Source: Anaerolineae bacterium
Lineage (GTDB): Bacteria; Chloroflexota; Anaerolineae; Aggregatilineales; Phototrophicaceae
Assembly (NCBI GenBank): GCA_026645945.1
Contig: JAPKMO010000032.1
Span: 1-40,581, forward strand
Direction of reading: 5' to 3'
Length of the DNA stretch: 40,581 nt
How positions within the stretch are numbered: the stretch's first letter is position 1; each line of letters begins with the position of its first letter. The notes beneath the pieces are model-generated. The model saw only the letters and a list, made by a program, of their open reading frames with translations. It did not search any database and was not told where the DNA came from. Made by a program: the position numbers and the translations under genes. Below are positions 10,245-39,782 of the stretch, piece after piece.

Positions 10245-11144
10245 GTGCCTGAAGGGACGTGGTTGATGGGTAAAAAATCCGACCGGGAGACGCGCTACCT
10301 CGACCGCCCGCGTACCGAAACCCCGGCCCCGCTGCGGGCAACCGGCCCGCTGGATGAAGAACTGCCCTGGGTGATCGAATTTCGCGTGGTGGGGACGGCC
10401 TCGACCATCCAGGTCCAGGTGCAGGAAGCGATGACCATCGGGCGCAGCGACCCCCAGCGCGGCGTTTACCCGGACGTGGATTTAGGGCCGCACGGCGCGC
10501 AGCACCGGGGGGTTTCGCGCCAGCACGCGGTTATTATCGCCAGAGAAAATCGTATCGCCGTTAAAGACCTGGGCAGCGTCAACGGCACGCGCCTCAACGG
10601 CCGGGTGATGGTTCCCGACCAGGAATACCGCCTGCGGCACGGCGATGAACTGGAAGTGGGCGAGCTCAAACTACAGGTGCGGTTCGCGGTCGTGCCGACC
10701 CTCAGCGGCACGCGCGGCGAAACGCTCAATCATGCCGCCATCCCGGTGATCGGCAAAGGCCAGCATGTGCTGGTTGTAGAGGATGATGAGGATGTCGGCA
10801 AGGTGTTCAGCATCGCGCTGGAACATGCCGGTTTCCATGTTTCCGTCGCTAACTCGGTGGTGTCGGCGCTGGGGTTCGTCAGCCACCAGCTGCCGGACGC
10901 CATCGTGCTGGATTTGCTGCTGCCGGATATGAGCGGCCTGGATTTGCTGCGTTACGTGCGGAAAGAGTTCAAGCGCCATATCCCGATGATCGTCGTCTCC
11001 GGCGCGACCGGCGGTTTTCAGGCCAATCAGGCCAAAGACATCGGCGCGGACGTTTTTCTGGGCAAACCGATCAGCGTTGAAGACCTGGTGCGCGCGGTGG
11101 CATCCTTCCTGGTTGACCCGGCAGACATCACCGCCGCTCAGTGA
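10245..11144 (+). CDS. FHA domain-response regulator receiver fusion protein
   Basis: The 299-residue product joins two signalling domains. Residues about 60-147 form an FHA domain: TIGRSDP, GVSRQHAVI and LGSVNGTRLNG hold the conserved Gly-Arg, Ser-x-x-His and Asn-Gly residues that bind phosphothreonine. Residues about 172-290 form a receiver domain: acidic pocket EDD (179-181), phospho-acceptor Asp223 in VLDLLLPDMSG, Ser252 in VVSGA and Lys274 in LGKP. There is no DNA-binding or catalytic output. It could link Thr kinases, of which two are encoded here, to two-component phosphorelay. Starts GTG 10245 or ATG 10266 are possible; GAAGGG at about 10251-10256 favours the ATG. Confidence 0.9.
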   Translation: MPEGTWLMGKKSDRETRYLDRPRTETPAPLRATGPLDEELPWVIEFRVVGTASTIQVQVQEAMTIGRSDPQRGVYPDVDLGPHGAQHRGVSRQHAVIIARENRIAVKDLGSVNGTRLNGRVMVPDQEYRLRHGDELEVGELKLQVRFAVVPTLSGTRGETLNHAAIPVIGKGQHVLVVEDDEDVGKVFSIALEHAGFHVSVANSVVSALGFVSHQLPDAIVLDLLLPDMSGLDLLRYVRKEFKRHIPMIVVSGATGGFQANQAKDIGADVFLGKPISVEDLVRAVASFLVDPADITAAQ

Positions 11145-14065: not shown

Positions 14066-15145
14066 ATGCAGCAGCCCAGACAGTTATCCCTGTTTTCACC
14101 GGCCAGCGCCCTCGCATTCAATTATCCGTTCCCATCCACGCGCTACCAGGGCAGTAAACGATCTCTGGTCAATTGGATTTGGGAGCAGGTCTGCCATCTG
14201 CCATTTGATACGGTTCTGGATGTATTCGGCGGCACGGGGGCTGTCAGCCATCTGTTCAAAAATGCCGGGAAGCAGGTTATCTATAACGATTTTTTGGCCT
14301 TCAACTGGAATATCGGGCTGGCGCTTATTGAAAATCGGGAAGCAAAACTCTCCCAGGACGAAATAGACCTTGTATTAAATGTCCAGGATGGCCTTCAGTA
14401 TCCCAACTTTATCCAAAACACTTTTGGCGGCATCTATTTTACAGATGCTGAAAACGCCTGGTTAGACCATGTGGCGTACAACATAGACCATTTACTCCTC
14501 AATCGTTATAAACAGGCGTTGGCCCGGTTTGCGCTGTTTCAGGCCTGCATCATCAAGCGTCCGTACAACCTGTTTCATCGCGCTAATCTCTATATGCGAA
14601 CCGCGCAGGTGGAGCGCAGTTTTGGCAACAAGATCACCTGGGATACACCTTTTGAGATGCATTTTCGCGGTTTCGCAGCCGAAGCCAATCGAGGGGTTTT
14701 TGATAACGGGCGGGACAATCAGGCGATGTGCCTCGATGCATTAGAAACGCCAGTTGGGGCTGATCTCATATATATTGATCCCCCGTACCTTAACCGCAAA
14801 GGCACAGGCGTTGACTATCGGGATTTTTATCACTTTCTGGAAGGGCTTGCCGGTTACGATACCTGGCACGCGCGCATTGACTACAACAGCAAACATCGCC
14901 GGCTGCGGCCACAAAAATCGCTCTGGAACAGCCCGGCAACCATTATGGATGCTTTCGAGCAGTTATTTAGCCGGCATCATGAGAGTATACTCGTTATCTC
15001 ATATCGTGACGATGGCCTACCCACCAAAGCCCAACTGATAAAGCTGCTGCTTAAATATAAAAAACAGGTGTGGGAAGCTGCTCAACCCCAAAAATATGCG
15101 CTGGCGCACAAAAAATCCCACGAACTGCTGCTCATCGCTCGTTGA
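14066..15145 (+). CDS. D12-class (alpha) adenine-N6 DNA methyltransferase of a type II R-M system
   Basis: The 359-residue product carries motif X (RYQGSKR, about 26-32), the SAM-binding motif I DVFGGTGAV (52-60) and the catalytic motif IV DPPY (238-241), in the alpha-group order X-I-target-recognition-IV. The Asp of DPPY makes adenine N6 the likely target. The stretch between 90 and 230 should recognise the DNA sequence. Its job is protection against the endonuclease that starts 15 bases downstream. It is not obviously close to M.EcoRV itself. Codons use more A/T than the neighbours, suggesting acquisition by transfer. Confidence 0.88.
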   Translation: MQQPRQLSLFSPASALAFNYPFPSTRYQGSKRSLVNWIWEQVCHLPFDTVLDVFGGTGAVSHLFKNAGKQVIYNDFLAFNWNIGLALIENREAKLSQDEIDLVLNVQDGLQYPNFIQNTFGGIYFTDAENAWLDHVAYNIDHLLLNRYKQALARFALFQACIIKRPYNLFHRANLYMRTAQVERSFGNKITWDTPFEMHFRGFAAEANRGVFDNGRDNQAMCLDALETPVGADLIYIDPPYLNRKGTGVDYRDFYHFLEGLAGYDTWHARIDYNSKHRRLRPQKSLWNSPATIMDAFEQLFSRHHESILVISYRDDGLPTKAQLIKLLLKYKKQVWEAAQPQKYALAHKKSHELLLIAR

Positions 15146-15160
15146 TGAAGGAAGTTGGCA

Positions 15161-16042
15161 TTGGAACAGGATCACTTTCGAGAAGAACTGCTGCAATACT
15201 TTGATGAACTGCAAGAGCGTGTCTCCACCGAAAACGGCGATTGGACGGTCAAGGGCTTTATTGACGTTTATCGGCGCATCTACAGTATTTCGATAGATAC
15301 AAAAGTCCTTTCAAAAGTCCTCGAACTGCTGATGTTCCCGGTGATTTTGCGCTTTGCCGAAGAACGCGGATATGAAATTGTCCTGGCTAAAGCGCAAAAT
15401 CAATATCCCGATGTCAGCCTCGTATCGAAATCCAATGAAACGCTGTGTTTTGCTGTTGACATCAAGACAACTTATCGAACAGGAAAGGATAAAAATGGCC
15501 GAATGCGCGTCAGCGGCATGACGCTCGGCACTTTTGGCGGTTACTTCCGTATCCGCGACCGCCCAATGAGCAGCACATTTGCATATAACCGCTACACGAG
15601 ACATTACGTGTTGGGCGCAGTCTACAGCCGGGTTACGGGTATTGATGAGCGCAAGGTTTATGACATTACCGATCTCAGCGATATCCCCTCGGTGGCGCGA
15701 GACTTCCAGTTCTTTCTTCAGGAAAAATATCTTGTTGCCTCAGACGCTCCCGGCAGCGGTAATACCAAAAATATCGGCTCAACAAAATATCTGGATCGGC
15801 TGCTTAACGGCACAGGCGTCTTTGCAAAACTCGGTGTTGAGGTTTTTGACGATTATTGGATGAATTACCACACACGGGCTATGGCACGCGAGGAAGGTTT
15901 TGCAAAACCTCCTTATACCAATCTCAAAACGTACCAGGCTCACAAAAAACAGGGGGCTGAAATTCTGAACATCTCGGAAGATGCGGTTGAAACCGAAGCC
16001 AAAGATGGCCTTGAAACAGATATTCTTGATGTAGACGAATAA
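15161..16042 (+). CDS. EcoRV-family type II restriction endonuclease
   Basis: From TTG 15161, six bases after AAGGAAG, the product is 293 residues (TTG 15155 is the alternative). It matches EcoRV as I remember it: IDTKVLS near the start, the PD-(D/E)xK core QNQYPD...FAVDIKTTY with Asp84, Asp100 and Lys102 in the same 16- and 2-residue spacing as EcoRV Asp74, Asp90 and Lys92, and the DNA-recognition loop GSGNTKNIGS (about 198-207), which differs at one position from EcoRV GSGNTTNIGS. FFLQEKYLVASD and DDYWMNY also correspond. A C-terminal acidic extension of about 40 residues is extra. Predicted cleavage is GATATC or a close variant. It ends three bases before the ppc stop. Confidence 0.9.
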   Translation: MEQDHFREELLQYFDELQERVSTENGDWTVKGFIDVYRRIYSISIDTKVLSKVLELLMFPVILRFAEERGYEIVLAKAQNQYPDVSLVSKSNETLCFAVDIKTTYRTGKDKNGRMRVSGMTLGTFGGYFRIRDRPMSSTFAYNRYTRHYVLGAVYSRVTGIDERKVYDITDLSDIPSVARDFQFFLQEKYLVASDAPGSGNTKNIGSTKYLDRLLNGTGVFAKLGVEVFDDYWMNYHTRAMAREEGFAKPPYTNLKTYQAHKKQGAEILNISEDAVETEAKDGLETDILDVDE

Positions 16043-20077: not shown

Positions 20078-21154
20078 TCAGCCGCCGCTGGCTGCCGCTT
20101 GCAGGCGGTTGATGGCCTCGCGGGCGGGGGTGAAGTTTTTATTCTGGTTCAGCGCCTCCTGGTAGTTCGCCAGGGCGCGGTCGCGCTCGCCCAGCCCTTC
20201 GCGGGCGACACCGGCGTAATAGTAGGTTTCCTCGATGTGCTGCGACGTGCCGGGTTCGTTGAGCAGCACGCGCGCCAGTTCGATCACGTCGCTGTAGCGC
20301 CCGACCGCGTTATAAGCCTCATACGGCCCGAACTGATACCACATCATACGCCAGGGCAGGCCGATATTGCGCGCCTGGTCGTAGGCGGCGGCGGCATACT
20401 CGTAGGCTCTGGCATCGAAGCTCGCCAGCGCCACGTAGTTTGTCCCCAGGTTAAACCAGGCGAAAGCGTCGTTCGGGTTCGCCAGCGCCCGCTGGCGGTT
20501 CAGCTCCAGGGTATTCAGGTAATTCTGGGTCTGGTCGGCGTCGTCGCCCAGCAGCGCCAGCGCATCCTGCTCGCGGGAGAAGTCGTACAGCACGATATAG
20601 GTATTGTTAAAGTGATGCCAGAACTGCTCGATATGGTCGTAGCTGTAAGTGATGTTCGGCCCCAGGTAGCTGTCCTGCGTTTTGAACGACCGCGCGCCGT
20701 CGTCATAACCCATCACCAGCAGGTAATGGCCCATCCAGCCCAGGCGCTGCGGCTCCGGGTCGTAACCGGCTTCGATGATGACCGGAAAATTGGCGGCGAT
20801 CAACTGTTTGAGCCGTTCCAGGCTGCCGCCCACACGCACCAGGGCGCGCGTGGTGCCGGGAAGCTGTGTATTCACATAGTCGGCCATCTGCCAGGGGCTG
20901 ACGTTGCCGTCCTCCGGGTTGGGCTTCAGCCAGCTGGCCGCCGGGTTCTGGTCGGCGGGGACGCCGAAGTAAGTCAGCCCCATCGTCAGGGTCGCCGGCC
21001 CGCAGTTGTTCCACTGCTGCGGGATGTGGGTGAACCCGGCCATTTCGTAAGCCGGGGGTGGGGCTTGCTGCGCCAGCGCGCCCGCCGCCGGCAGCAGCGC
21101 GATGCTCCATAAAACCAACACAACCAACCAGGCCAGATGTCGTTTTTTCATCAT
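20078..21154 (-). CDS. Exported C39-like cysteine peptidase with TPR-like repeats
   Basis: A signal peptide (about residues 1-28, cleavage after ALA) is followed by a papain-like C39_2 domain: WNNCGPATL holds the catalytic Cys (about 51), MGHYLLVMGYDD the His (about 143) and QDSYLGPN the Asp (about 161). The C-terminal 150 residues contain TPR-like helical pairs (AWFNLGTNYVALA, EETYYYAGVAREGLGERDRALANYQEAL). Such proteins may cut peptides outside the membrane, with the TPRs binding partners; the substrate is unknown. Consecutive ATGs at 21154 and 21151 are possible starts. It is divergent from the receptor kinase gene. Confidence 0.78.
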   Translation of the reverse strand: MMKKRHLAWLVVLVLWSIALLPAAGALAQQAPPPAYEMAGFTHIPQQWNNCGPATLTMGLTYFGVPADQNPAASWLKPNPEDGNVSPWQMADYVNTQLPGTTRALVRVGGSLERLKQLIAANFPVIIEAGYDPEPQRLGWMGHYLLVMGYDDGARSFKTQDSYLGPNITYSYDHIEQFWHHFNNTYIVLYDFSREQDALALLGDDADQTQNYLNTLELNRQRALANPNDAFAWFNLGTNYVALASFDARAYEYAAAAYDQARNIGLPWRMMWYQFGPYEAYNAVGRYSDVIELARVLLNEPGTSQHIEETYYYAGVAREGLGERDRALANYQEALNQNKNFTPAREAINRLQAAASGG

Positions 21155-21361
21155 CAACCTTCATCACTTGCTCGTTAGCTCGCATTATAATGGTTTGTTG
21201 TGCGTTGAACATAGACCGTTTGGCTACGAATGCCCCACGCCGGCCCAATCGTAATTTGTAATGTTATTTAATGATTTTCTGGCGATTCGGGATTGAATAG
21301 CCTATACTATAGTCGAGGATTTTATCCCCAGGCATTGCCCGCCCAACATTAAGGAACCGGT

Positions 21362-23452
21362 ATGCCAAACGATGATTTGATCGGTAGACGAATTGACGAT
21401 TTTGTAATCGAGGAGCGCCTGGGGCAGGGTGCGATGGCCGTCGTTTACCGCGCCTACCAACCGTCCATTAACCGGCATGTCGCCCTCAAGGTGATCCGCC
21501 TGAATCAGGGACAGCACGAGGAGTTCCGGCAGCGTTTTGCCCACGAAGCCGAAATCATCGCGCGCCTGGAACACATTCACATTCTGCCGATTTACGCCTA
21601 CGGCATTAACGACGAAATGGCTTATCTGGCGATGCGCTGGCTGCGCGGCGGCACGCTGGGCGATCTGATGCGCACCGAAAGGCTGAACTTCGACCGCGCG
21701 GCGGAAATTTTCAAGCAGGTGGCGCAGGGGCTGACTTTCGCCCACAGCAAAGGCATCATCCACCGCGACCTGAAGCCCAGCAACATCATGCTCGATGACG
21801 CCGGCAATGCCTACCTGACCGACTTCGGCCTCGCCAAATTGTCCGAAGGCTCGCTGGAACTGACCAAAACCGGCACCATTGTCGGCACGCCGGCCTATAT
21901 GTCGCCGGAACAGCTTCGCGGCGAAACGCTCGATCATCGCAGTGACATCTACAGCTTGGGTGTCATCCTGTACAATATGATCGTCGGGCGGCTGCCCTTC
22001 GATACGGCCAGCAGCGATCTGGTTTCGATCATCTACCAGCACCTGGAAAAAGCGCCCACGCCGCCGTCGCAGATCAACCCGGACATCCCGCTGGAAGTCG
22101 AGATGGTCATCATGGCCGCGCTGCAAAAAGACCGCGCCAAACGGTATAACAGCGCCGTCGAAATGTCGCGGGCGCTGGACATCGCGCTGGGGCGTCCGGT
22201 CGGCAGCAGCGATCATCTGCTGGCTTCCAAACCCAGTTCCAATCCTAACATCCTCGAACTCAGCCGGGCGACGCTGATCGTGCAGCGGCGGCCCGGTTTT
22301 TACCTCGCCATCGGCGCGCTGCTGCTGGTAGTGGTGGCGGTGGTGGTCGCGGTCGTCGTGCAGGGACTGCTGTCCAACAGCCAGATGGCAGCGGCGGCCA
22401 CCATGCAGGCCGAAACGGCCTCGGCGCTGGAAGCCGCGCTGACGGAAACGGCGGTGGCGGCGGCCTGGACGCCTACCCCTCTGCCGCAGCCGACAGTGCG
22501 GGTCGGCGAACACGGCTCGGCCTCGCAGGTCATCCCCAGCGGGCAGGAAATCGCCATTGTACAGCGGCGGCTGGGCGAACGCGGTTTTATGGCTTACATC
22601 GCCTGCACGCTGGACAGCGAGTTTCATGCCGGCATCGCGCGGGAAATCCGCGATCAGGCCGCGCGCTACGGCCTGGAACTGCGCGTGTACGACAGCGAAG
22701 CCGACCCCTACAAACAGATCACGCAGATCGAGCGCGCCCGCACCGATAACGCCGCCGCGCTGATTATCTGCACACTCGACCCAAACCTGCTGGTGAATAC
22801 CCTGGCTGCTGCCCAGGCGGCTAAAATCCCGATGGTCTTTTTCGCCGGCGACCAACCCAGCTATGGCGGTGTGCTGGTGGCGGGCGATAACTACGCCCTG
22901 GGCTTGGAGCCGGGCCGGCTGGCCGGCAAAATCATCCGCAGCGAGCTGGGCGGCCAGGCCAATGTCATCCTGCTGGACTTCCCCGACCTGCCGGACATCG
23001 TGCTGCGGGCGGACGGCATGGAGGACGGCCTGCTGGAGTTCGCGCCGGACGCCAACATCATCGGGCGCTTCCTGGGCGGCACGCGGGAAAACGGCCGAGA
23101 ATCGGTCGCCAAACTGCTGGAAGAAGGTGTGGATTTTGATGTGATCGTCAGCATCAACGACGCGGGGGCCTTCGGCGCGGTTGACGCGCTTAAAGCGGCG
23201 GGTGTCCCGCCGGATAAGGTTATCATCACCAGCGTGGACGGCGAACTGCTGGCGCAGCAGTACATCGCGGATGGGTATTATTTTCGCGGCACGGTGCAGT
23301 CGTCGCGCATCGAAACGGCGCGCATTCTGGTTAACGCGGCAGTGCGGCTGATGGCCGGGGGAACCCTGCCGGAATTTATCAGCGTGCCGCCCGGCAAGAT
23401 GATTACCCGCGACACCCTGCCCCGCGAGGACCCCACCCGCACCGGCAGTTAA
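21362..23452 (+). CDS. Transmembrane Ser/Thr kinase fused to an extracellular periplasmic sugar-binding-protein domain
   Basis: Residues 1-275 form an active-looking Hanks kinase: glycine loop GQGAMAVVY (21-29), Lys43, HRDLKPSN (134-141), DFG (154-156), TPAYMSPE. A membrane helix spans about 312-337. After a Ser/Thr/Pro linker, residues about 406-690 resemble a type I periplasmic binding protein of the ribose/galactose class (Peripla_BP_4): ARYGLELRVYDSEAD, LIICTLDP, AAKIPMVFFAGD, GGQANVILLDF, DVIVSINDAGAFGAVDALKAAG and ITSVDG are its repeated strand-turn elements. Topology places the binding domain outside. It likely senses a sugar and phosphorylates cytoplasmic proteins. Its stop overlaps that of the convergent GH31 gene by three bases. 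Confidence 0.88.
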   Translation: MPNDDLIGRRIDDFVIEERLGQGAMAVVYRAYQPSINRHVALKVIRLNQGQHEEFRQRFAHEAEIIARLEHIHILPIYAYGINDEMAYLAMRWLRGGTLGDLMRTERLNFDRAAEIFKQVAQGLTFAHSKGIIHRDLKPSNIMLDDAGNAYLTDFGLAKLSEGSLELTKTGTIVGTPAYMSPEQLRGETLDHRSDIYSLGVILYNMIVGRLPFDTASSDLVSIIYQHLEKAPTPPSQINPDIPLEVEMVIMAALQKDRAKRYNSAVEMSRALDIALGRPVGSSDHLLASKPSSNPNILELSRATLIVQRRPGFYLAIGALLLVVVAVVVAVVVQGLLSNSQMAAAATMQAETASALEAALTETAVAAAWTPTPLPQPTVRVGEHGSASQVIPSGQEIAIVQRRLGERGFMAYIACTLDSEFHAGIAREIRDQAARYGLELRVYDSEADPYKQITQIERARTDNAAALIICTLDPNLLVNTLAAAQAAKIPMVFFAGDQPSYGGVLVAGDNYALGLEPGRLAGKIIRSELGGQANVILLDFPDLPDIVLRADGMEDGLLEFAPDANIIGRFLGGTRENGRESVAKLLEEGVDFDVIVSINDAGAFGAVDALKAAGVPPDKVIITSVDGELLAQQYIADGYYFRGTVQSSRIETARILVNAAVRLMAGGTLPEFISVPPGKMITRDTLPREDPTRTGS

Positions 23453-25854
23453 ACGTCCGCATCCCTCAGCGATACCACCACGCCCCGGCGTCCGTCGGGG
23501 CGTTTGATTTCCGCGCCGCCCGCAGCCGGGCGTTTTTCCCCCAACGGCAGCACAAATTCGACTTCGGCATACGGCAGCGCGTACCCGCTTCGCGTCCGCC
23601 GGGCGCTGAGGGTGATACGTTCCGGTTCGGCCAGGGCTTCGAGCAGCACTTCGGTATATTGGCCGCGCCGGTAATCCAGGCTCACGCCGTCGTCCTCCAC
23701 CAGCGTAAAACTGCCCCGCCCCGCCCCCGGATGCGGGAACACGTACACCTCGCGCCGGGTGGGGTCGGCTTCACCCGCCAGCGGGATGACCGCCCCGGCG
23801 GGCGCGAGCAGCGGCAGGCGCTCCAGCGGCGCGTCGGCCTCGATGGTCTGCCCCCCGGCGAACCACGCGCCGGAATAAAAGTCGCACCAGAAATCATTCC
23901 CCGGCAGGTACACCGCCCGGCGGCGCGCGCCCGCTTCCAGCACCGGCGCGGCCAGCAGCCCCGGCCCCAGCATCAGGTCGAACGATTCGGTATGCGTGCG
24001 CGAGTCGTCCGGAAAGTGGTAGACGGTAGGCCGGATGACCGGCGTGCCCGTTTGCGCCGCCCGGAACAGCAGCGTATACAGGTAGGGAATCAGCCGGCGG
24101 CGGAAGCGGAACAGGTCGCGCACCAGCGGCAGGATGTCGGGGTACATCCAGGGTTCGGTGGCCGTGTTTAAACCGACCGAATGAATGGTGAAACGCGGGT
24201 GAACCAGCCCGCATTGAATCCAGCGCACGAACAATTCGCGGTCGGGCGGCGCGCCGAAAAAGCCGCCGACATCGTGGCCGGTGTTGGGCATCCCGGACAG
24301 GCTCAGGCTCAAACCCATCGGGATGTTAAACCGCAGCGTTTCCCAGGCGGTGCTGTTATCGCCCGACCAGGTTTGCGCGTACCGCTGAAGGCCAGGGCAG
24401 CCCGACCGGGAAATCAGATAGGGGCGTTCGTTTGGGCGCGCTTCGCGCAGCGCCTCGTAAGACGCGCGCGCCATCAGCAGCGTTTGCAGCGGGCGGCCCA
24501 GCCCGGCGCGCAGCGGCTCGCCCGCGCCGTCAAAACGCGCTTCATCGTCCGGGATTTCAAACTCGTTGTTGTCGTTCCACAGGCCGTCTATATCGTAGGC
24601 CAGCAGCGTTTCGTTGATCTGCCGCTTCCACCAGTCGAAGCCCGCGCCGGTAAAATCCAGATACGAAGCGCCGGCGCTCTGGTTTAAACCGGCGCTCCAG
24701 CTTTGATGCACCAGCGGCGCGTCCCGCTCGGTATCGTGGACGAACGCGCCCAGGGCGGCGGCCTCATCATAACGCGGGTGGGTCGCCAGCAGGTAGGGTT
24801 TGATGTTGGCCGATAGGCGAATACCCGCCCGGTGAAAACCGTCCACCATCGCCTGCGGGTCGGGGATTTTGTCCCGATTCCAGGTAAAAACGTTGCGCCG
24901 CCCCTCCGCGTCGGTGGTGTAACCGGATGACAGGTGAAACAGGTCGCAGGGGATGTCGTGCGCGCGGCATTTTTCGATAAAACCGTCAAGCTGCGCCTGG
25001 GCATCCGGCATTTCGGTATACAACATGGTCGAGCCGAGATACCCCAGCGTCCAGCGCGGCGGCAGCGCCGGGCGTCCGGTCAGCCGGGCGAACTTTTCCA
25101 CCACCTCGGCAATGGTCGGCCCGAAGATCAGGTAATAATCCAGGTCGCCGTCCTCGGCGCGGTAGTACCGGTAGCGCCCCCAGATGCCGTTGATCTCCTG
25201 CCCCAGATCGAAGACGCCCTCGGCCAGATTGTCGTAAAACAGACCGTAGGCGATTTGCTGTTCCGGCACATAGGTGATGTAAAACGGCCAGTGTTTGTAG
25301 AGCGGGTCGGTGCGGGCGGCGTCGTAACCGAGCGCATCTACAGCGGCCAGCCGCAGCCGCCGGCCGTGTTTGTCCAGCGGGCCGGCGCTCTCGCCGCAGC
25401 CATAATAGTGTTCGTCCGGGCGGCGCTCCAGATAATGCATCACCGCCCGCCCGGCCCGGTCATAGGCATAGGCGCGCCCGGACAGATCGGCGGCGAACGC
25501 CCGCCCACCGGCATCGAACCAGCGCAGCGCGAACGAGTCCGGCGCGATTTCAAGCTGAAGGTTATCGGTGCGCCGGCGTATCACCCCCGGCGGCGCTTCG
25601 ACCGGCTGCCAGCCCGGCAGCGAAAACGGCGACAGATCATCGCGGCGGCGGCCTTCGCGCGGCACGTCGCCGTCTGCCCCGACCACCAGCCACGTCCGAT
25701 TCAGGCGCGGGCGGCCTTCCGGCCAGTGGCAGATGCGAATGATGTCCGGTTCTAAGGCGGTGATCGCTAAATATTCGCCGCGCCCGCCGGCGAAGGCCAG
25801 CGTATGCGGGGCGGAGTCGGTCATAGCAGTCTGGACAAAAGTCGTGAAGCGCAT
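23449..25854 (-). CDS. Glycoside hydrolase family 31 (alpha-glucosidase-like)
   Basis: The 801-residue enzyme has the GH31 layout: N-terminal beta-sandwich (YYGCGESAGPLDKHG), catalytic TIM barrel with the nucleophile in IDGLWNDNNEFE (Asp about 428, where most members read WxDMNE), and the acid/base Asp about 499 in QTWSGDNSTAWE, then C-terminal beta domains. HDVGGFFGAPP and HSVGLNT are further GH31 markers. Family members release alpha-linked glucose or xylose from oligosaccharides. No signal peptide is seen, so it acts in the cytoplasm, probably on imported sugar. ATG 25854 (AGGGG upstream) is preferred to the frame start at 25887. The neighbours (sugar-receptor kinase, transporter genes) fit a carbohydrate locus. 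Confidence 0.9.
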   Translation of the reverse strand: MRFTTFVQTAMTDSAPHTLAFAGGRGEYLAITALEPDIIRICHWPEGRPRLNRTWLVVGADGDVPREGRRRDDLSPFSLPGWQPVEAPPGVIRRRTDNLQLEIAPDSFALRWFDAGGRAFAADLSGRAYAYDRAGRAVMHYLERRPDEHYYGCGESAGPLDKHGRRLRLAAVDALGYDAARTDPLYKHWPFYITYVPEQQIAYGLFYDNLAEGVFDLGQEINGIWGRYRYYRAEDGDLDYYLIFGPTIAEVVEKFARLTGRPALPPRWTLGYLGSTMLYTEMPDAQAQLDGFIEKCRAHDIPCDLFHLSSGYTTDAEGRRNVFTWNRDKIPDPQAMVDGFHRAGIRLSANIKPYLLATHPRYDEAAALGAFVHDTERDAPLVHQSWSAGLNQSAGASYLDFTGAGFDWWKRQINETLLAYDIDGLWNDNNEFEIPDDEARFDGAGEPLRAGLGRPLQTLLMARASYEALREARPNERPYLISRSGCPGLQRYAQTWSGDNSTAWETLRFNIPMGLSLSLSGMPNTGHDVGGFFGAPPDRELFVRWIQCGLVHPRFTIHSVGLNTATEPWMYPDILPLVRDLFRFRRRLIPYLYTLLFRAAQTGTPVIRPTVYHFPDDSRTHTESFDLMLGPGLLAAPVLEAGARRRAVYLPGNDFWCDFYSGAWFAGGQTIEADAPLERLPLLAPAGAVIPLAGEADPTRREVYVFPHPGAGRGSFTLVEDDGVSLDYRRGQYTEVLLEALAEPERITLSARRTRSGYALPYAEVEFVLPLGEKRPAAGGAEIKRPDGRRGVVVSLRDADV

Positions 25855-25931
25855 CGAAAACACCCCTGAGCGCGAAAGGGCCGTCAAACCAGATGCCCCG
25901 GCGAAGATTTGAACACAGCTTATCGCTTTTG

Positions 25932-26066: not shown

Positions 26067-27695
26067 ATGAACCGAAAATATGCTTTTGTTCTGCTGGCGG
26101 CGCTGGCCTTGATGGTCGGCCTGGCTGCCCCGGCTGCCGCGCAGGGGAAAACCCTGACGGTTTCCTGGCCGCAGGAGCCGGACAGCCTGAATCCAATGTA
26201 CACCACCATGACCTTCGCCGGGTACACCTATCAGTTGTTCCTGGCGGCCACCTGGGAATTTGATGAAAACTACGAACTCGTCCCCATCCTGGTTGGCGAA
26301 ATTCCGAGCGCCGGCAACGGCGGCATCAGCGAGGACGGCACGACCTTCACGCTCAAGCTGAAAGACGGCCTCACCTGGTCGGACGGCGACCCGCTGGATT
26401 CGGCGGATTTTGTGTTCACCTACGAAATGTACATGTCCGACAAAAACACGCCCTTAACCCGCACGCCCTGGGAGGAATTCGAGAGCATCGAAGCGCCCGA
26501 CCCCACCACCGTCGTCATTAAATTTGCCGAGCCTTACGCGCCCTGGTCGGGGCAGCTCAGCCTGCGTCCCATCCCGGAACACATCCTGCGCCCGGTTTTT
26601 GAAGCCGATGGCACACTGGACAACGCCGCCTGGAACAGCAACCCGACCGTCGGCAGCGGCGCGTTCATCTTGCAGGAATGGGATCGCGGCAACTTTGCCC
26701 GCTTCGCCCCCAACCCCAACTTTGCGATGGGCGCGCCCAAAATTGAAACGCTGGTCGTCACCTTCATCCCCGACGATCAGGCTTATGTCGCCAGCCTGGA
26801 AGCCGGCGACAGCGAACTCGGCACGTTCATTGACCCGCGCGACGTGCCGCGTTTGCAGGACGCCGGCCTGGACGTGCGCCTCATCCCATCGGGCTACAAC
26901 GAAGGCTGGTTCTTGAACGCCAGCCCCGAACGCGCCCATCCGGCCATGACCGACCTGCGCGTGCGTAAGGCCATCGCCCTCGGCTTCGACCGCTTCAGCA
27001 TGGTGGAGGACCTGCTGGGCGGCGTGCTGCCGGTCGGCCACAGCTATTGGGAGCAGACCCCCTACGCCAACCCCGACCTGCCACCCGTGCCGTATGATCC
27101 CGAACAGGCCAAAGCCCTGCTGGACGAGGCCGGCTGGGTGGACACCAACGGCAACGGCATCCGCGACAAGGACGGCGTGGAACTGGAACTGCGTTTCATC
27201 TCCACCACCCGCCAGATTCGCCAGGATATGAAGGCGCTGGCGCAGCAGCAGCTTGGCGAAATCGGCATCGGCATTTCAATTGAAAACTACGAATCGAACG
27301 TCTTCTTTAACGGTTATGCCGAAGGCGGCCCGGCGGCCACCGGCCAGTACGACATCGCCACCTGGTCATCCTCGCCCGGCGGCTTCCCCGACCCCGACAC
27401 CAACCGCTTCCAGTGCGACCAGGTTCCGAGCGACGATAATCCGGTCGGCGGCAACTGGAACTACTACTGCGACCCCGCCCTGGATGAACTGTTCGCCAAA
27501 TCGCGGGTGACAACCGACTTCGACGAGCGCGTCGCTATCTATCACCAAATTGACAAGCTCATCTACGACTCCTATATCTGGATTAACACCTGGTATGATG
27601 CCGACATCTGGGTGGTCGGCAGCCGCGTCCAGAACGCCCGGCTGAACGGCACGACGCCGTTCTTCGATGTGGTCAATTGGGACGTAGCCGGGTAA
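26067..27695 (+). CDS. ABC transporter substrate-binding protein, family 5 (peptide/oligosaccharide type)
   Basis: The 542-residue product has a signal peptide (about 1-25, ending AAAAQ; no lipobox Cys). The mature protein has the SBP_bac_5 pattern: TVSWPQEPDSLNPMYT near the N-terminus, FTLKLKDGLTWSDGDPLDSADFVFTYE (family signature, about 91-117), VRKAIALGFDR in the second lobe and EQAKALLDEAGWVDTNGNG. Family 5 proteins bind di- or oligopeptides, nickel or oligosaccharides; motif reading does not decide, and the GH31 neighbour makes a saccharide conceivable. Two hairpins separate it from the permease genes, a common way to keep binding protein expressed above the membrane parts. Confidence 0.9.
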   Translation: MNRKYAFVLLAALALMVGLAAPAAAQGKTLTVSWPQEPDSLNPMYTTMTFAGYTYQLFLAATWEFDENYELVPILVGEIPSAGNGGISEDGTTFTLKLKDGLTWSDGDPLDSADFVFTYEMYMSDKNTPLTRTPWEEFESIEAPDPTTVVIKFAEPYAPWSGQLSLRPIPEHILRPVFEADGTLDNAAWNSNPTVGSGAFILQEWDRGNFARFAPNPNFAMGAPKIETLVVTFIPDDQAYVASLEAGDSELGTFIDPRDVPRLQDAGLDVRLIPSGYNEGWFLNASPERAHPAMTDLRVRKAIALGFDRFSMVEDLLGGVLPVGHSYWEQTPYANPDLPPVPYDPEQAKALLDEAGWVDTNGNGIRDKDGVELELRFISTTRQIRQDMKALAQQQLGEIGIGISIENYESNVFFNGYAEGGPAATGQYDIATWSSSPGGFPDPDTNRFQCDQVPSDDNPVGGNWNYYCDPALDELFAKSRVTTDFDERVAIYHQIDKLIYDSYIWINTWYDADIWVVGSRVQNARLNGTTPFFDVVNWDVAG

Positions 27696-27708
27696 AACGT
27701 ATCTGCGG

Positions 27709-27738
27709 GTAGAAAGGCGCTTCCAGGCGTCTTTCTAC
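27709..27738 (+). terminator. Intercistronic hairpin between binding protein and permease
   Basis: GTAGAAAGGCGC pairs with GCGTCTTTCTAC over 12 bp (one G-T) with a six-base loop. No T-run follows, so it is more likely an attenuator or mRNA-stabilising stem than a full stop. Confidence 0.55.
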
Positions 27739-27744
27739 ATCTGG

Positions 27745-27770
27745 TAGGGGCGGGTTTTGACCCGCCCCTA
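27745..27770. repeat. Short palindrome TAGGGGCGGG / CCCGCCCCTA
   Basis: Perfect 10-bp arms around TTTTGA, six bases after the preceding hairpin. A member of the dispersed palindrome class also seen at 6966 and 30753. Confidence 0.65.
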
Positions 27771-27811
27771 TGTGTACCTGGCCGGCAGCAAGTCGTTTTT
27801 GAGCAAAGCCC

Positions 27812-28831
27812 ATGTCCCGATATATTATTCGCCGCCTGATTCAGGCCGTCCCGTTATTATTTTTTATCAGCATCGTGCTGTTTTTGTTGATGCAGGCTTC
27901 CGGCGACCCGCTGGCGACCCTGGGCGGACGCCAGCCGCCCCGCGCCGAAGACCGCGAACGGCTGAAACGCCAGATGGGGCTGGATCAGCCGCCGCTGGTG
28001 CAGTATTTCATCTGGCTGGTGGGCAACGACTGGATGGTCGTCAACGACGAAACCGGCGAAACCGGCGCGCGCCGGGGCGTCATCCGGGGCGATTTTGGCA
28101 CGTCGTTCGTCACGCGCCAGCCGGTGATCGAAGTGATCTGGGAACGGATGCCGAATACGCTGATTTTGATGGGGACGGCGGAGGTGGTCATCATCATCGT
28201 TTCGCTGACCATCGGCGTCATCTCGGCGGTGCGGCAGTACAGCCTGCTGGACACGGTGGCGACCGGATTTTCGTTCGTGGCCTATTCCATCCCGGTATTC
28301 CTGATGGGGCTGATGTTGATGTATATCTTCGCCGTGCGCTTTCGCCAATGGGGGCTGCCGTACCTGCCCATTAGCGGCATGTTCGACCCGACGGTGGGGC
28401 GCACCTTCGACCAGATCGCCCGGCATCTGGTGCTGCCGGTGATGACGATTTCGCTCATCAGCATCGCCACCTACAGCCGCTACATTCGCTCCACCATGCT
28501 GGAAGTGATTAATTCGGATTACATCCGCACTGCGCGGGCAAAAGGTTTATCGGAGCGGCGGACGCTGTTCGTCCACGCCTTCAAAAACGCCTCGCTGCCG
28601 ATTGTGACGCTCATCGGCCTGGATTTGCCGTTTTTGCTGGCCGGCGCGGTGGTGACGGAAACCATCTTCGCCTGGCCGGGTATGGGGCGGCTGTTCATTG
28701 ACCACCTGACGCGCTCCGATTATCCGGTGCTGATGGGGCTGCTGATGATGATTTCGGTAGCGGTGGTCATCTTCCAACTGCTGACCGACGTTGTATATAC
28801 CTGGCTCGACCCGCGCATCCGGTACACGTAG
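27812..28831 (+). CDS. ABC transporter permease, DppB type
   Basis: The 339-residue protein opens with MSRYIIRRLIQAVPLLFFIS, the standard N-terminus of DppB/OppB permeases, and carries the periplasmic GDPLATLGG segment. The C-terminal permease domain holds YIRTARAKGLSERRTLFVHAFKNA, the EAA loop that contacts the ATPase, and DLPFLLAGAVVTETIFAWPGMG. About six TM helices are expected. It forms one half of the channel with the next gene. The ribosome site is weak. Confidence 0.92.
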   Translation: MSRYIIRRLIQAVPLLFFISIVLFLLMQASGDPLATLGGRQPPRAEDRERLKRQMGLDQPPLVQYFIWLVGNDWMVVNDETGETGARRGVIRGDFGTSFVTRQPVIEVIWERMPNTLILMGTAEVVIIIVSLTIGVISAVRQYSLLDTVATGFSFVAYSIPVFLMGLMLMYIFAVRFRQWGLPYLPISGMFDPTVGRTFDQIARHLVLPVMTISLISIATYSRYIRSTMLEVINSDYIRTARAKGLSERRTLFVHAFKNASLPIVTLIGLDLPFLLAGAVVTETIFAWPGMGRLFIDHLTRSDYPVLMGLLMMISVAVVIFQLLTDVVYTWLDPRIRYT

Positions 28832-28840
28832 GGGGCGAAG

Positions 28841-29788
28841 ATGGCAACTTCATCTCAGGCTAAACCGATCACTTTAAACGACCAGACGACCGCCAATTAT
28901 TCCCGCGTCCGGCGCACGCTCAACCGCTTTTTGCGCCACCGGGTCGCGGTGGTGGGGCTGGTGGTTTTAATCGCTATCGTGCTGTTCGTGACCCTCGGCG
29001 CGCTGTGGTATTCCGAGGCCGACGCCAACTATAACGATACCAAACGCAGCCTGTTAGCCCCCAATGCGGAGTTCCCCCTGGGGACAGACACGATTGGCCG
29101 CAACATCCTGGCGCGCATCATCTACGGCGGGCAGATTTCCATGCTCATCGGCGTCACCGCCGTGACCGTTTCGGTGCTGGTCGGCACAACGGTAGGCGTG
29201 TTTTCCGGCTATTTCGGCGGGGTGGTGGATTCGCTGCTGATGCGTTTTACCGAGGCGATGTTAAGCATCCCCTCGCTGCTGCTGCTGCTGGTGATGGCGA
29301 AGTTTTTCAGCGGGCGCATCCCCCAGCAGGAATTTTTAGGGCGCACCTTCAGCGGCAGCGTGATCGTGATCGTGGTGATTATCGGCCTGACAAGCTGGAT
29401 GTATCTGGCGCGCATTGTGCGTTCGGCGGTGCTGTCCATCCGGGAAACCGAATATGTAATGGCGGCGCAGGCGCTGGGCGCGACACACCGACGCATCATC
29501 CTGGCGCATATCCTGCCGAACACCTTAGCGCCGGTGATCGTGGCCGCCACGCTGGGGGTCGCCAGTGCCATTTTGTCGGAGGCGTACATCAGTTTTCTGG
29601 GCGTGGGGGTGCAGCCGCCGACGGCCACCTGGGGCAACATGCTGGAAGGCTCGCGCCGGTACATTGATGACGCGCCCTGGCTGTGGATTTTCCCCGGCCT
29701 GATGATCGTGCTGACGGTGATGAGCATCAACTTCGTGGGCGATGGTCTGCGCGACGCGCTCGACCCGCGCTCCGACAAAAAAGTCTGA
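28841..29788 (+). CDS. ABC transporter permease, DppC type
   Basis: The 315-residue product has the OppC_N segment (RRTLNRFLRHRVAVVGLVVL, about 24-43), HPLGTDTIGRN-like LGTDTIGRNILARIIYGG, and the EAA loop YVMAAQALGATHRRIILAHILPN followed by EAYISFLGVGVQPPTATWGNML. These define DppC/OppC. It pairs with the DppB-type protein; the two genes are nine bases apart. No ATPase gene follows: the next gene is convergent and a MITE-like element begins ten bases after the stop. Confidence 0.92.
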   Translation: MATSSQAKPITLNDQTTANYSRVRRTLNRFLRHRVAVVGLVVLIAIVLFVTLGALWYSEADANYNDTKRSLLAPNAEFPLGTDTIGRNILARIIYGGQISMLIGVTAVTVSVLVGTTVGVFSGYFGGVVDSLLMRFTEAMLSIPSLLLLLVMAKFFSGRIPQQEFLGRTFSGSVIVIVVIIGLTSWMYLARIVRSAVLSIRETEYVMAAQALGATHRRIILAHILPNTLAPVIVAATLGVASAILSEAYISFLGVGVQPPTATWGNMLEGSRRYIDDAPWLWIFPGLMIVLTVMSINFVGDGLRDALDPRSDKKV

Positions 29789-38084: not shown

Positions 38085-39782
38085 ATGAGCGAACAAAGCG
38101 AAAAACCGAAAGATGACCTGATCGGCAAAATCCTCGGCCAGTACGAGATTCTGGAGGAAATCGGGCGGGGCGGCATGGCGACCGTTTACCGCGCGCGCCA
38201 GCTTTCCATCAACCGCGTGGTGGCCGTCAAGGTGCTGCCGCGCCACCTGCTGCACGACCCCGGCTTTTTCGAGCGTTTCGAGCGCGAAGTGGATGTGGTC
38301 GCCCACCTGGAACATCCCCACATTCTGCCGATTTACGACTACGGCAAGGCCGACGACATGCCGTATATCGCCATGCGCTACCTGGCCGGGGGCAGCCTGG
38401 CGCAGATTATCCGGCGCGGCGCGCCCCGGCTGGAAGACCTGGAACGCCCGATGACCCAGGTCGGGCAGGCGCTGGATTACGCGCACCAGCAGGGCATCAT
38501 TCACCGGGACATCAAACCCGGCAATATCCTGCTGGACGAAAACGGCAACGCTTATCTGTCCGACTTCGGCATCGCCCGCGTCCTGGGCAGCAACCTGACC
38601 GGCAGCGCCATCATCGGCACACCGGCGTATATGAGTCCCGAACAGGCCAACGGCTTCCCACTGGACGCGCGCTCCGACCTGTATTCGCTGGGTATCGTGC
38701 TGTTTGAACTCATCACCGGGCGCGAGCCGTACCAGGCGGAAACGCCGATGGCGCTGCTGCTCAAACACATCAACGAGCCGATTCCGCCGGTCAGCCTGTT
38801 CCGCCAGGGCGTGCCGAGGGAGGTCGAGATGGTGATCGCCCGCGCGACGGCCAAAGACCCCAACCAGCGTTATGCTTCGGCGGGGGAAATGGCGCGCGCC
38901 TTCAGCGAGGCGTTAGGCAGGCTGCGGAACGCCTCGCCCGCCGCCGGGCCGATGGTGGTTGAAGATTCGCCCACCCTGCGGCCAGATGCACCGCCGCGCC
39001 AGACGCCTTATCCCACGCCGCCGCCGACGCCCTATTCCACCCCCTACGGCGGCCAGCCCACGCCGTACCCGCCGCAGACGCCTTACGGGACGCAAACGCC
39101 CTATCCTACGCCCTACCCGCCCGCGCCCCCCTACGGCGCGCCCACGCCGCCGCCGACCGCAGCGCCCGCCCGGCGTTCACCGCTGCCGGTCATCGCGGCG
39201 CTGGTTGCCCTGGTGGTACTCATCGGCGCGGGGACGGTGCTGGTGCTGCCATCGCTCACCGCGCAGGAAGTCCCGGTGACGCGCGTCCCGGCCACGCTGG
39301 GCGCGCCCACGCCCTTCAGCCGCGCCAACCTCGTCACCACCAACCTGTACAGCATCGCCGTACCCAGCGCGTGGCGTTATGTCGAGATGACTGCCGACCA
39401 GTTGGTGAACCACTACTGGGATGACCGGCGGGACGCCAACGCACCGACGACCGCTTATGTGTCGCTGACGATGGTGGACGCCAAACTGGAAACCACGCGG
39501 GACTTTAACGCGGCGGTGGCGGACTACGACAGCGATTATGTTGCGCCGTTTCTCAACGACAGCCTGGCGCTGATAGACGAACAAACCGCCCCGGACGGCA
39601 CGATCCGCCGCAGCTACCGCCGCGCCGCCCAGGACGGGCTGGAAGCCGGGCAGATGGACGTTTTTTACATCGCCCGCGCGCCTTATCTGGTAGTGCTGCA
39701 ATTTTTCTCCGCCGACAGCACCGGCGATTCGCTCGTGCCGACCTTCCAGGCCATCCTGGACAGCCTGCGGGTGATCGGTTAA
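38085..39782 (+). CDS. Transmembrane Ser/Thr protein kinase with Pro/Thr/Tyr-rich linker and PsbP-like outside domain
   Basis: The 565-residue product has a complete kinase domain (about 20-280): glycine loop GRGGMATVY (27-35), Lys49, HRDIKPGN (140-147), DFG (160-162), TPAYMSPE. Residues about 303-362 are a linker of repeated TPYPxP words, which may be phosphorylated or extend the chain. A TM helix lies at about 367-389, and the outside domain starts LYSIAVPSAWRYVEM, the PxxWR type also seen in the exported proteins at 2315 and 3684. It is PknB-like, without PASTA repeats. It is followed by a terminator and then the heat-shock operon. Confidence 0.9.
   Translation: MSEQSEKPKDDLIGKILGQYEILEEIGRGGMATVYRARQLSINRVVAVKVLPRHLLHDPGFFERFEREVDVVAHLEHPHILPIYDYGKADDMPYIAMRYLAGGSLAQIIRRGAPRLEDLERPMTQVGQALDYAHQQGIIHRDIKPGNILLDENGNAYLSDFGIARVLGSNLTGSAIIGTPAYMSPEQANGFPLDARSDLYSLGIVLFELITGREPYQAETPMALLLKHINEPIPPVSLFRQGVPREVEMVIARATAKDPNQRYASAGEMARAFSEALGRLRNASPAAGPMVVEDSPTLRPDAPPRQTPYPTPPPTPYSTPYGGQPTPYPPQTPYGTQTPYPTPYPPAPPYGAPTPPPTAAPARRSPLPVIAALVALVVLIGAGTVLVLPSLTAQEVPVTRVPATLGAPTPFSRANLVTTNLYSIAVPSAWRYVEMTADQLVNHYWDDRRDANAPTTAYVSLTMVDAKLETTRDFNAAVADYDSDYVAPFLNDSLALIDEQTAPDGTIRRSYRRAAQDGLEAGQMDVFYIARAPYLVVLQFFSADSTGDSLVPTFQAILDSLRVIG

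Follow-up and report, generated by a model that had tools for sequence, protein, structure and literature searches.

A predicted receptor Ser/Thr kinase with a sugar-class periplasmic-binding-protein ectodomain, found as a single fusion group in one order of Anaerolineae

Introduction

What does a bacterial receptor kinase sense when the domain that it displays outside the membrane looks like the solute-binding protein of a sugar transporter? For most bacterial Ser/Thr receptor kinases the stimulus has yet to be identified, and the question is raised here by a gene at positions 21362-23452 of a 40,581-nucleotide stretch of an Anaerolineae bacterium genome (assembly GCA_026645945.1, contig JAPKMO010000032.1), which as a whole we call the window. 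A reading of the letters alone, referred to below as the original prediction, had proposed that this gene fuses three parts, a Hanks kinase, a membrane helix and, at the C-terminus, a type I periplasmic-binding-protein (PBP) domain, and that the product is a one-component sugar receptor lying beside carbohydrate genes. Our analysis bears out the architecture by Pfam, hydropathy and an AlphaFold2 model, and traces the fusion through the relatives of its host. We consider it likely that the protein is a one-component receptor kinase of the Venus-flytrap kind, built as a single chain, and that its ligand is a sugar-like solute.

Architecture of the fusion protein

The gene is a single frame on the plus strand that starts with ATG and runs for 696 amino acids without an internal stop, joining kinase, membrane helix and PBP domain. 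Its parts are as follows.

21362..23452, plus strand: receptor Ser/Thr kinase with a type I PBP ectodomain, 696 amino acids (open reading frame, Pfam, relatives)
21404..22150, plus strand: Hanks kinase domain, residues 15-263 (Pfam, alignment of 32 fusions)
21863..21871, plus strand: activation-loop T168-K-T170 (alignment)
22286..22390, plus strand: single transmembrane segment, residues 309-343 (hydropathy)
22391..22465, plus strand: predicted stalk helix, residues 344-368, continuing from the membrane, low confidence (full-length model)
22544..23449, plus strand: predicted extracytoplasmic type I PBP domain, residues 395-696, Pfam match 411-666 (Pfam, AlphaFold2 model)

Three Pfam families match above their gathering cut-offs, namely Pkinase at residues 15-263 (E 4.5e-53), Peripla_BP_4 (PF13407) at 411-666 (E 3.5e-35, 122.2 bits against a cut-off of 35.1) and Peripla_BP_1 (PF00532) at 418-620 (E 9.5e-8). 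The one hydrophobic segment has three Lys or Arg residues on its N-side flank and none on its C-side flank, so the kinase is predicted to lie inside and the binding domain outside; by our count from the hydropathy output, the N-side flank is the more positive in 27 of 32 aligned fusions. These 32 are the full-length fusions, an alignment that omits L047 (contig end), L053 and L055 (without kinase) and L056 (broken frame), and a few of them (L038, L042, L051a, L054, L060 and L062) have extra split or weak hydrophobic segments. The AlphaFold2 model of residues 395-696 has a mean predicted local distance difference test score (pLDDT) of 92.3, and among solved structures it best matches the binding proteins for ribose, arabinose and galactofuranose (2ioy, E 2.8e-20, template-modelling scores 0.80/0.87). 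The NCBIfam matches of the fusion include RbsB, YtfQ, MglB, XylF and ChvE. By family score and predicted fold, then, the C-terminal part is a type I PBP of the sugar class (PF13407), as had been proposed. In the full-length model (pLDDT 75, predicted template-modelling score, pTM, 0.45) one helix spans residues 312-368, the membrane helix extending into a stalk.

The ectodomain profile also matches PDB entry 2x7x ('SENSOR PROTEIN', E 5.8e-9), which we take to be BT1754, a Bacteroides hybrid two-component sensor. No HisKA, HATPase or receiver domain is among the nine Pfam families matched by the fusion, and identity with a BT1754-type hybrid sensor is ruled out on this ground.

The kinase domain keeps a complete motif set (Gly loop, Lys, Glu, HRDxKxxN and DFG). 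K43, E62, HRD 134-136, K138, N141 and DFG 154-156 are invariant in all 32 aligned fusions, and G21 of the Gly loop is kept in 31. In the activation loop, T168 is invariant (32/32) and residue 170 is Ser or Thr in 27/32, both aligning with the T-x-T of the PknB loop, presumably its autophosphorylation sites. On these motifs we place the protein among the Hanks-type receptor Ser/Thr kinases and predict that it is catalytically competent. The closest solved kinases are PknB entries (E 1.4e-52). A PASTA kinase of the PknB/Stk1 kind is ruled out by a PknB_PASTA_kin score of 305 against an NCBIfam cut-off of 450 and by the absence of PASTA repeats among the nine Pfam families matched.

Distribution and origin of the fusion

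We surveyed genomes for the same fusion, as the original prediction had suggested, and it recurs in relatives, which rules out an accident of assembly. Six short peptide patterns, run against 84,980 species genomes in a search that detects close relatives only, returned 21 loci, 20 of them labelled as Chloroflexota groups; the remaining locus (L041), labelled Bacteroidetes and 57% identical to the fusion, is probably a mislabelled bin. Within the order, a binding-domain match at E<=1e-40 is found in 67 of 154 genomes, and by hand count 64 of these have the match in a frame of at least 590 amino acids, with G029, G464 and G546 giving a short match only. Among the 64, G035 has a tandem binding-domain frame and a broken kinase frame and no intact fusion. 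Kinase and PBP domain share one open reading frame in 51 distinct proteins, 48 of which enter the cleft table below, together with three further ones.

Beyond the order the signal falls away. A draw of 400 genomes from the phylum, with at most six candidates scored per listed genome, gave a match at E<=1e-45 only in the window's own genome. A draw from the class gave matches at E<=1e-25 in 15 of 298 genomes, seven of them outside the order, where the frames measure 341-395 amino acids or, in G783, 687 amino acids with two PBP matches; a kinase match was sought in the PBP frame of three of these seven (L135-L137) and none was found. No plasmid record covers 80% of the fusion, and a search of a viral structure library returned nothing useful. 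Within this sampling the fusion is confined to one Anaerolineae order, and distant or independent fusions may exist elsewhere.

The tree agrees with a common origin. A branch with support 100/97 separates all 48 fusions from the 13 standalone binding proteins, and the fusions form one clade once three standalone proteins of other orders serve as the root. This tree adds the three further fusions and omits L003, the partial L047 and two long-branched rows, L108_3475 and L106_226; an earlier tree with L003, L108_3475 and L106_226, and lacking the window row, needed two changes, the distant L003 falling outside. Because the 48 fusions share one side of a well-supported branch, a single fusion event appears to fit best; on the simplest reading, a kinase gene captured a transporter-type binding protein once, and losses and duplications came later. 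Tandem fusion copies occur in some genomes: L106 (G472:C522) and L107 (G536:C201) have three each, one of those in L107 reaching the contig end, and L110 (G481:C52) and L051 (G020:C339) have two each.

As a separate observation, the G035 locus (L055 9070-10872, contig C23) holds a 601-amino-acid frame that carries the binding domain twice in tandem, with no kinase match.

The window's own genome (G000) holds 18 Hanks kinases by our search. Of 12 scanned with Pfam, five ending at a locus or contig edge, only the window fusion has a PBP domain; the others carry beta-propeller, TPR, RskA_C, Ig-like, SH3, TIR, AAA or 2TM domains or no recognised extra domain. One of the genome's kinases is also in the window (38085-39782, plus strand; 565 amino acids, Pkinase E 4e-51); its linker is rich in Pro and Thr, it has one hydrophobic segment, and its ectodomain matches no Pfam family. 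Another locus (L128 988-3723, G000:C29) encodes TIR, kinase, membrane segment and SH3_3 in one frame that leaves the locus.

The ligand cleft and a standalone relative

We mapped the cleft by alignment to the ribose-binding protein 2ioy, with residue frequencies counted over 48 fusions and 10 close standalone paralogues. In the C-lobe, the counterparts of the RbsB sugar contacts R141, N190 and D215 are R549, N599 and D626, which are present in 47, 44 and 40 of the 48 fusions (one row ends before D626) and, all three, in 10/10 standalone relatives. In the N-lobe, RbsB S9, N64, N13, F16, D89 and R90 correspond to C415, C470, S419, H422, A495 and G496. Both cysteines occur in 48/48 fusions, H422 in 37/48, A495 in 15/48 and G496 in 10/48, and each of these five residues in 10/10 standalone relatives. 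Measured against the residue set of an RbsB-type aldose binder, R549, N599 and D626 are retained and S419, A495 and G496 differ. The alignment thus suggests that the fusion and its standalone relative partly share an unusual site, unlike a plain aldose site, with positions 495 and 496 variable among fusions.

Among 21 closer relatives the mean column identity is 68%, and C415, H422, R549, N599, D626 and E628 are invariant. In a conservation test over 21 rows, the 12 positions equivalent to RbsB contacts average 0.675 bits against a domain mean of 1.082, that is, they are more conserved, with 687 of 20000 random sets as low. Taken apart, the C-lobe set is equalled by 1002 and the N-lobe set by 3559 of 20000 random sets, and a set of eight cleft positions chosen post hoc by 381 of 20000.

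The two cysteines, the sole ones of the window protein, call for a separate explanation.

22604..22606, plus strand: Cys415 (invariant in 48/48 fusions and 10/10 close standalone paralogues)
22769..22771, plus strand: Cys470 (invariant in the same sets)

Both are retained even in tandem copies in which other cleft residues have changed, and for this reason a ligand or metal site is the less likely role and a structural Cys415-Cys470 disulfide is probable.

The best clue to the ligand comes from the genome itself. A standalone, exported-type protein of 343 amino acids (G000:C232; L049 8975-10003) is 40-41% identical to the ectodomain and lies in the order SorC/DeoR-type regulator with a sugar-binding domain, paralogue, CUT2-type permease, ribose/arabinose-type ATPase and SIS-domain protein. 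On the opposite strand nearby are an FGGY kinase, a PTE-family protein, a PfkB ribokinase and a GH3 hydrolase, the whole locus covering L049 1367-13880. Most NCBIfam scores in this locus are under the equivalog cut-offs, with the ribokinase model TIGR02152 above its own. Relatives of the paralogue in G008, G016, G464 and G480 have a similar gene set, judged by gene order and protein starts. As a free exported protein next to a permease and an ATPase, the paralogue is what a CUT2 solute-binding protein would be expected to be. Its operon and its similar cleft point, with better support than other clues, to a sugar or sugar derivative as the ligand of the fusion.

An alternative is that the fold is common and the chemistry different, the ligand being a non-sugar signal such as an autoinducer-2 (AI-2)-like furanone, a nucleoside or another metabolite. 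The Asp-Arg pair of RbsB-type aldose binders is absent at 495/496, and RbsB contact positions are taken by two cysteines and, in 37/48, a histidine. Peripla_BP_4 is also the domain of AI-2 receptors (PMC12268683), and the regulator, FGGY kinase and permease of the paralogue locus match LsrR, AI-2 kinase and LsrC/LsrD models, far under cut-off. However, the sugar models outscore the Lsr models in that locus, the matches of the fusion itself are to the sugar-binder models named above, with neither LsrB nor LuxP among 25 of 28 NCBIfam matches listed, and the names LsrB and LuxP are absent among 54 PDB sequence matches. On balance we regard a non-sugar ligand as rather unlikely, and an AI-2 receptor of the LsrB type finds no family match among those listed.

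Gene neighbourhood

We compared 35 neighbourhood loci (the window, the 21 peptide-scan loci and 13 of 16 from a second set). The kinase fusion is present in 33, in one of them broken, and missing from L053 and L055. L028 ends soon past its GH31 gene, and five others (L035, L037, L042, L043 and L047) stop either inside the fusion or no more than about 1.7 kb downstream. The neighbours in the window are the following.

20078..21157, minus strand: Peptidase_C39_2 (residues 44-164) with a TPR-like C-terminal half, divergent neighbour (Pfam)
23449..25887, minus strand: GH31 alpha-glucosidase-type hydrolase, convergent, 4-bp overlap with the kinase stop (Pfam, NCBIfam)
26067..29788, plus strand: SBP_bac_5 gene with DppB-like and DppC-like permeases (Pfam, NCBIfam)

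The C39-TPR protein, putatively exported to judge from its hydrophobic N-terminus, is a frequent neighbour: its gene is divergently adjacent to the fusion in 19/35 loci and, by a count of coordinates, in at least 25 genomes from seven genera of one family (f1). This invites the proposal that the ectodomain is a docking platform for a transporter subunit, a cell-wall part or an exported neighbour such as the C39-TPR protein, and reports the state of that partner to the kinase. The closest functional precedent, GlnH-GlnX-PknG, has indeed been proposed to act through protein-protein contacts (PMC6069109). However, relatives of the C39-TPR gene occur in 151/154 genomes of the order, near-universally, whereas the fusion is not universal, so the linkage may be inherited gene order only; an obligate partnership is rejected on the same counts. 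Conservation in the ectodomain also covers cleft residues, beyond surface ones. We therefore hold a docking role to be improbable.

The carbohydrate genes fare less well. The original prediction was right about the gene order, a GH31 gene with an overlapping stop and then a family 5 operon. As evidence for the ligand it is weak: GH31 adjoins the fusion in 3/35 loci (window, L028 and L031), and the SBP_bac_5/Dpp genes follow within a few genes in 4/35 (window, L029, L030 and L031), which places both outside the conserved unit. In L060 and L062 a GH31 gene 33-35% identical lies several genes off. The 4-bp overlap is probably incidental, as the kinase and GH31 frames do not overlap in L031, the nearest relative. 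The family 5 solute-binding protein finds its best NCBIfam models among nickel and oligopeptide types, all below cut-off, and thus gives no evidence for sugar uptake. The sugar-gene neighbourhood, whose loss in all relatives had been named as counting against a sugar receptor, is nearly but not wholly lost, being kept in the nearest relatives only, and we reject it as conserved ligand evidence. A locus-specific regulator of sugar utilisation, controlling the neighbouring GH31 and SBP_bac_5/permease genes, would explain the gene order of the window and its nearest relatives; with so few loci keeping that order, and with peptides or nickel suggested for the binding protein, it is very unlikely.

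Nor does the fusion serve as the solute-binding protein of a CUT2 ABC transporter, an identity ruled out by its tether to a kinase and the want of an adjoining permease and ATPase: no CUT2 permease and ATPase pair lies directly beside the fusion in the neighbourhood loci, and L048 has two permease-type frames about 7 kb off. The FHA-receiver protein proposed as a possible reader of the signal is a real gene (10245-11144, confirmed by Pfam, about 10 kb from the fusion). Its link to the fusion is not borne out in the relatives listed, where its best match and the fusion are on different contigs, in assemblies many of which are fragmented (for example G005, C27 and C101; G008, C18 and C12; G014, C12 and C34; G024, C12 and C9). 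In G008 and G024 the fusion contig carries a second, weaker match (34-39%), about 290 kb and about 150 kb away respectively. Given the partly fragmented assemblies, this absence of linkage is no more than suggestive, and on it we reject a dedicated partnership.

Elsewhere in the window (14066-16042, plus strand), a compact restriction-modification pair consists of a D12-class adenine methyltransferase (E 1.2e-18) and, after it, a restriction endonuclease of the EcoRV family (PF09233, E 1.4e-89).

Proposed mechanism

If the protein is a receptor kinase for a sugar-like solute, as we think likely, the type I binding domain outside the membrane would close on the solute, and closure would be signalled through the short stalk to the single membrane helix. 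The signal would then alter the pairing of two kinase domains and so control autophosphorylation of the activation loop (T168/T170), the active kinase going on to phosphorylate cytoplasmic Ser/Thr substrates. Either direction of control, ligand-on or ligand-off, could be accommodated. What speaks for the one-component receptor of the original prediction is the conserved fusion, the kinase residues, part of the cleft and the predicted topology; its inference of the ligand from the neighbouring genes is weak, and the resemblance of the cleft to that of a sugar-operon binding protein is the better clue.

Several observations weigh against this interpretation. The positive-inside signal is equal on both sides in 4/32 aligned fusions and reversed in one (L051b), and with a pTM of 0.45 the full-length model does not fix the arrangement of the domains. 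The variable residues in place of RbsB D89/R90 and the serine in place of N13 imply that the ligand may not be a typical aldose, and the signal in the test of cleft conservation is modest. Among the neighbours we found no conserved gene for a substrate or a phosphatase, in a comparison where the downstream gene families of the relatives carried no Pfam names. Finally, the copies in tandem arrays differ at cleft positions 422, 473, 599 or 626; such copies may sense other solutes or may be decaying.

That the PBP domain is a decayed remnant without a ligand role, leaving a constitutive kinase, would agree with the cleft residues lost in some tandem copies (rows of L106, L107, L108, L110 and L051) and is scarcely credible against the column identity and invariant cleft residues of the 21 closer relatives.

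Relation to known systems

The nearest familiar receptors are the PASTA kinases (PknB, PrkC and StkP), with which the fusion shares a PknB-like cytoplasmic kinase, one membrane helix, a C-terminal sensor and the activation-loop T-x-T. It differs in having a type I sugar-binding-protein fold in place of PASTA repeats.

Control of a kinase by a solute-binding protein has been proposed for the GlnH-GlnX-PknG system of Actinobacteria, in which nutrients would act on a Ser/Thr kinase (PMC6069109). There, as described, sensor, membrane protein and kinase are separate and the ligands are amino acids, whereas the fusion is one chain with a sugar-type fold. A sensor of the sugar-binding type in cis on a membrane kinase is found in BT1754, the Bacteroides hybrid two-component fructose sensor whose periplasmic domain directly binds the sugar (PMC3404733). 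According to that account BT1754 has a histidine kinase, an AraC-type output, an N-terminal sensor and a linked sugar locus; the fusion, in contrast, has a Ser/Thr kinase, a C-terminal sensor and no conserved sugar locus. Already known, then, are the proposed control of a Ser/Thr kinase in trans by a nutrient-binding protein and a sugar-binding sensor in cis on a histidine kinase.

Other Ser/Thr kinases pair a cytoplasmic Pkinase with a different sensor fold across one membrane. These include kinases with a dCache_1 sensor, described in a survey of 15,297 genomes (PMC12268683), and Planctomycetota kinases with WD40, TPR and DUF1080 sensors (PMC11032199); a PBP sensor is not named in the portions of these two papers available to us. 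The survey states that LsrB and LuxP, the Peripla_BP_4 receptors for AI-2, "contain only the sensor domain" (PMC12268683). A 2018 review of bacterial Hanks kinases covers PASTA and beta-propeller sensors, and the words "periplasmic" and "sugar" are absent from its available text (PMC6213207). Among the matches listed, no open-licence paper has a Ser/Thr kinase fused to a Peripla_BP_4-type domain as its subject, by title or start of abstract.

The arrangement is of experimental interest, as few sensors lend themselves to ligand assignment more readily than type I binding proteins (thermal shift or isothermal titration calorimetry on the soluble domain) and the standalone transporter relative is a source of ligand candidates. 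A kinase with a PBP in cis would permit direct measurement of ligand-gated Ser/Thr signalling across one membrane helix. In another phylum, certain proteins of Streptomyces may bear the name "bifunctional Ser/Thr-protein kinase/ABC transporter substrate-binding protein", presumably pairing a kinase with other families of solute-binding protein in one chain; no such name is among 60 of 1051 records listed. If confirmed, they would lower the novelty of the general idea of joining a kinase to a solute-binding protein.

A parallel in design lies in animals. In Venus kinase receptors and the natriuretic-peptide-receptor cyclases, a single chain likewise links a Venus-flytrap ectodomain of the type I PBP class, through one membrane helix, to a domain that is a kinase or resembles one. 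Their domain order is reversed and their output is a Tyr kinase or cyclase; the design is convergent and the whole not homologous. It is possible, and we put it forward tentatively, that the single fusion event gave rise, from the sugar-binding protein of an ABC transporter, to a family of Venus-flytrap receptor kinases, and that in some lineages the receptors of the tandem arrays, with their altered clefts, each sense a different solute. If true, this would amount to a Ser/Thr-kinase chemosensory repertoire, a bacterial counterpart of the animal Venus kinase receptors.

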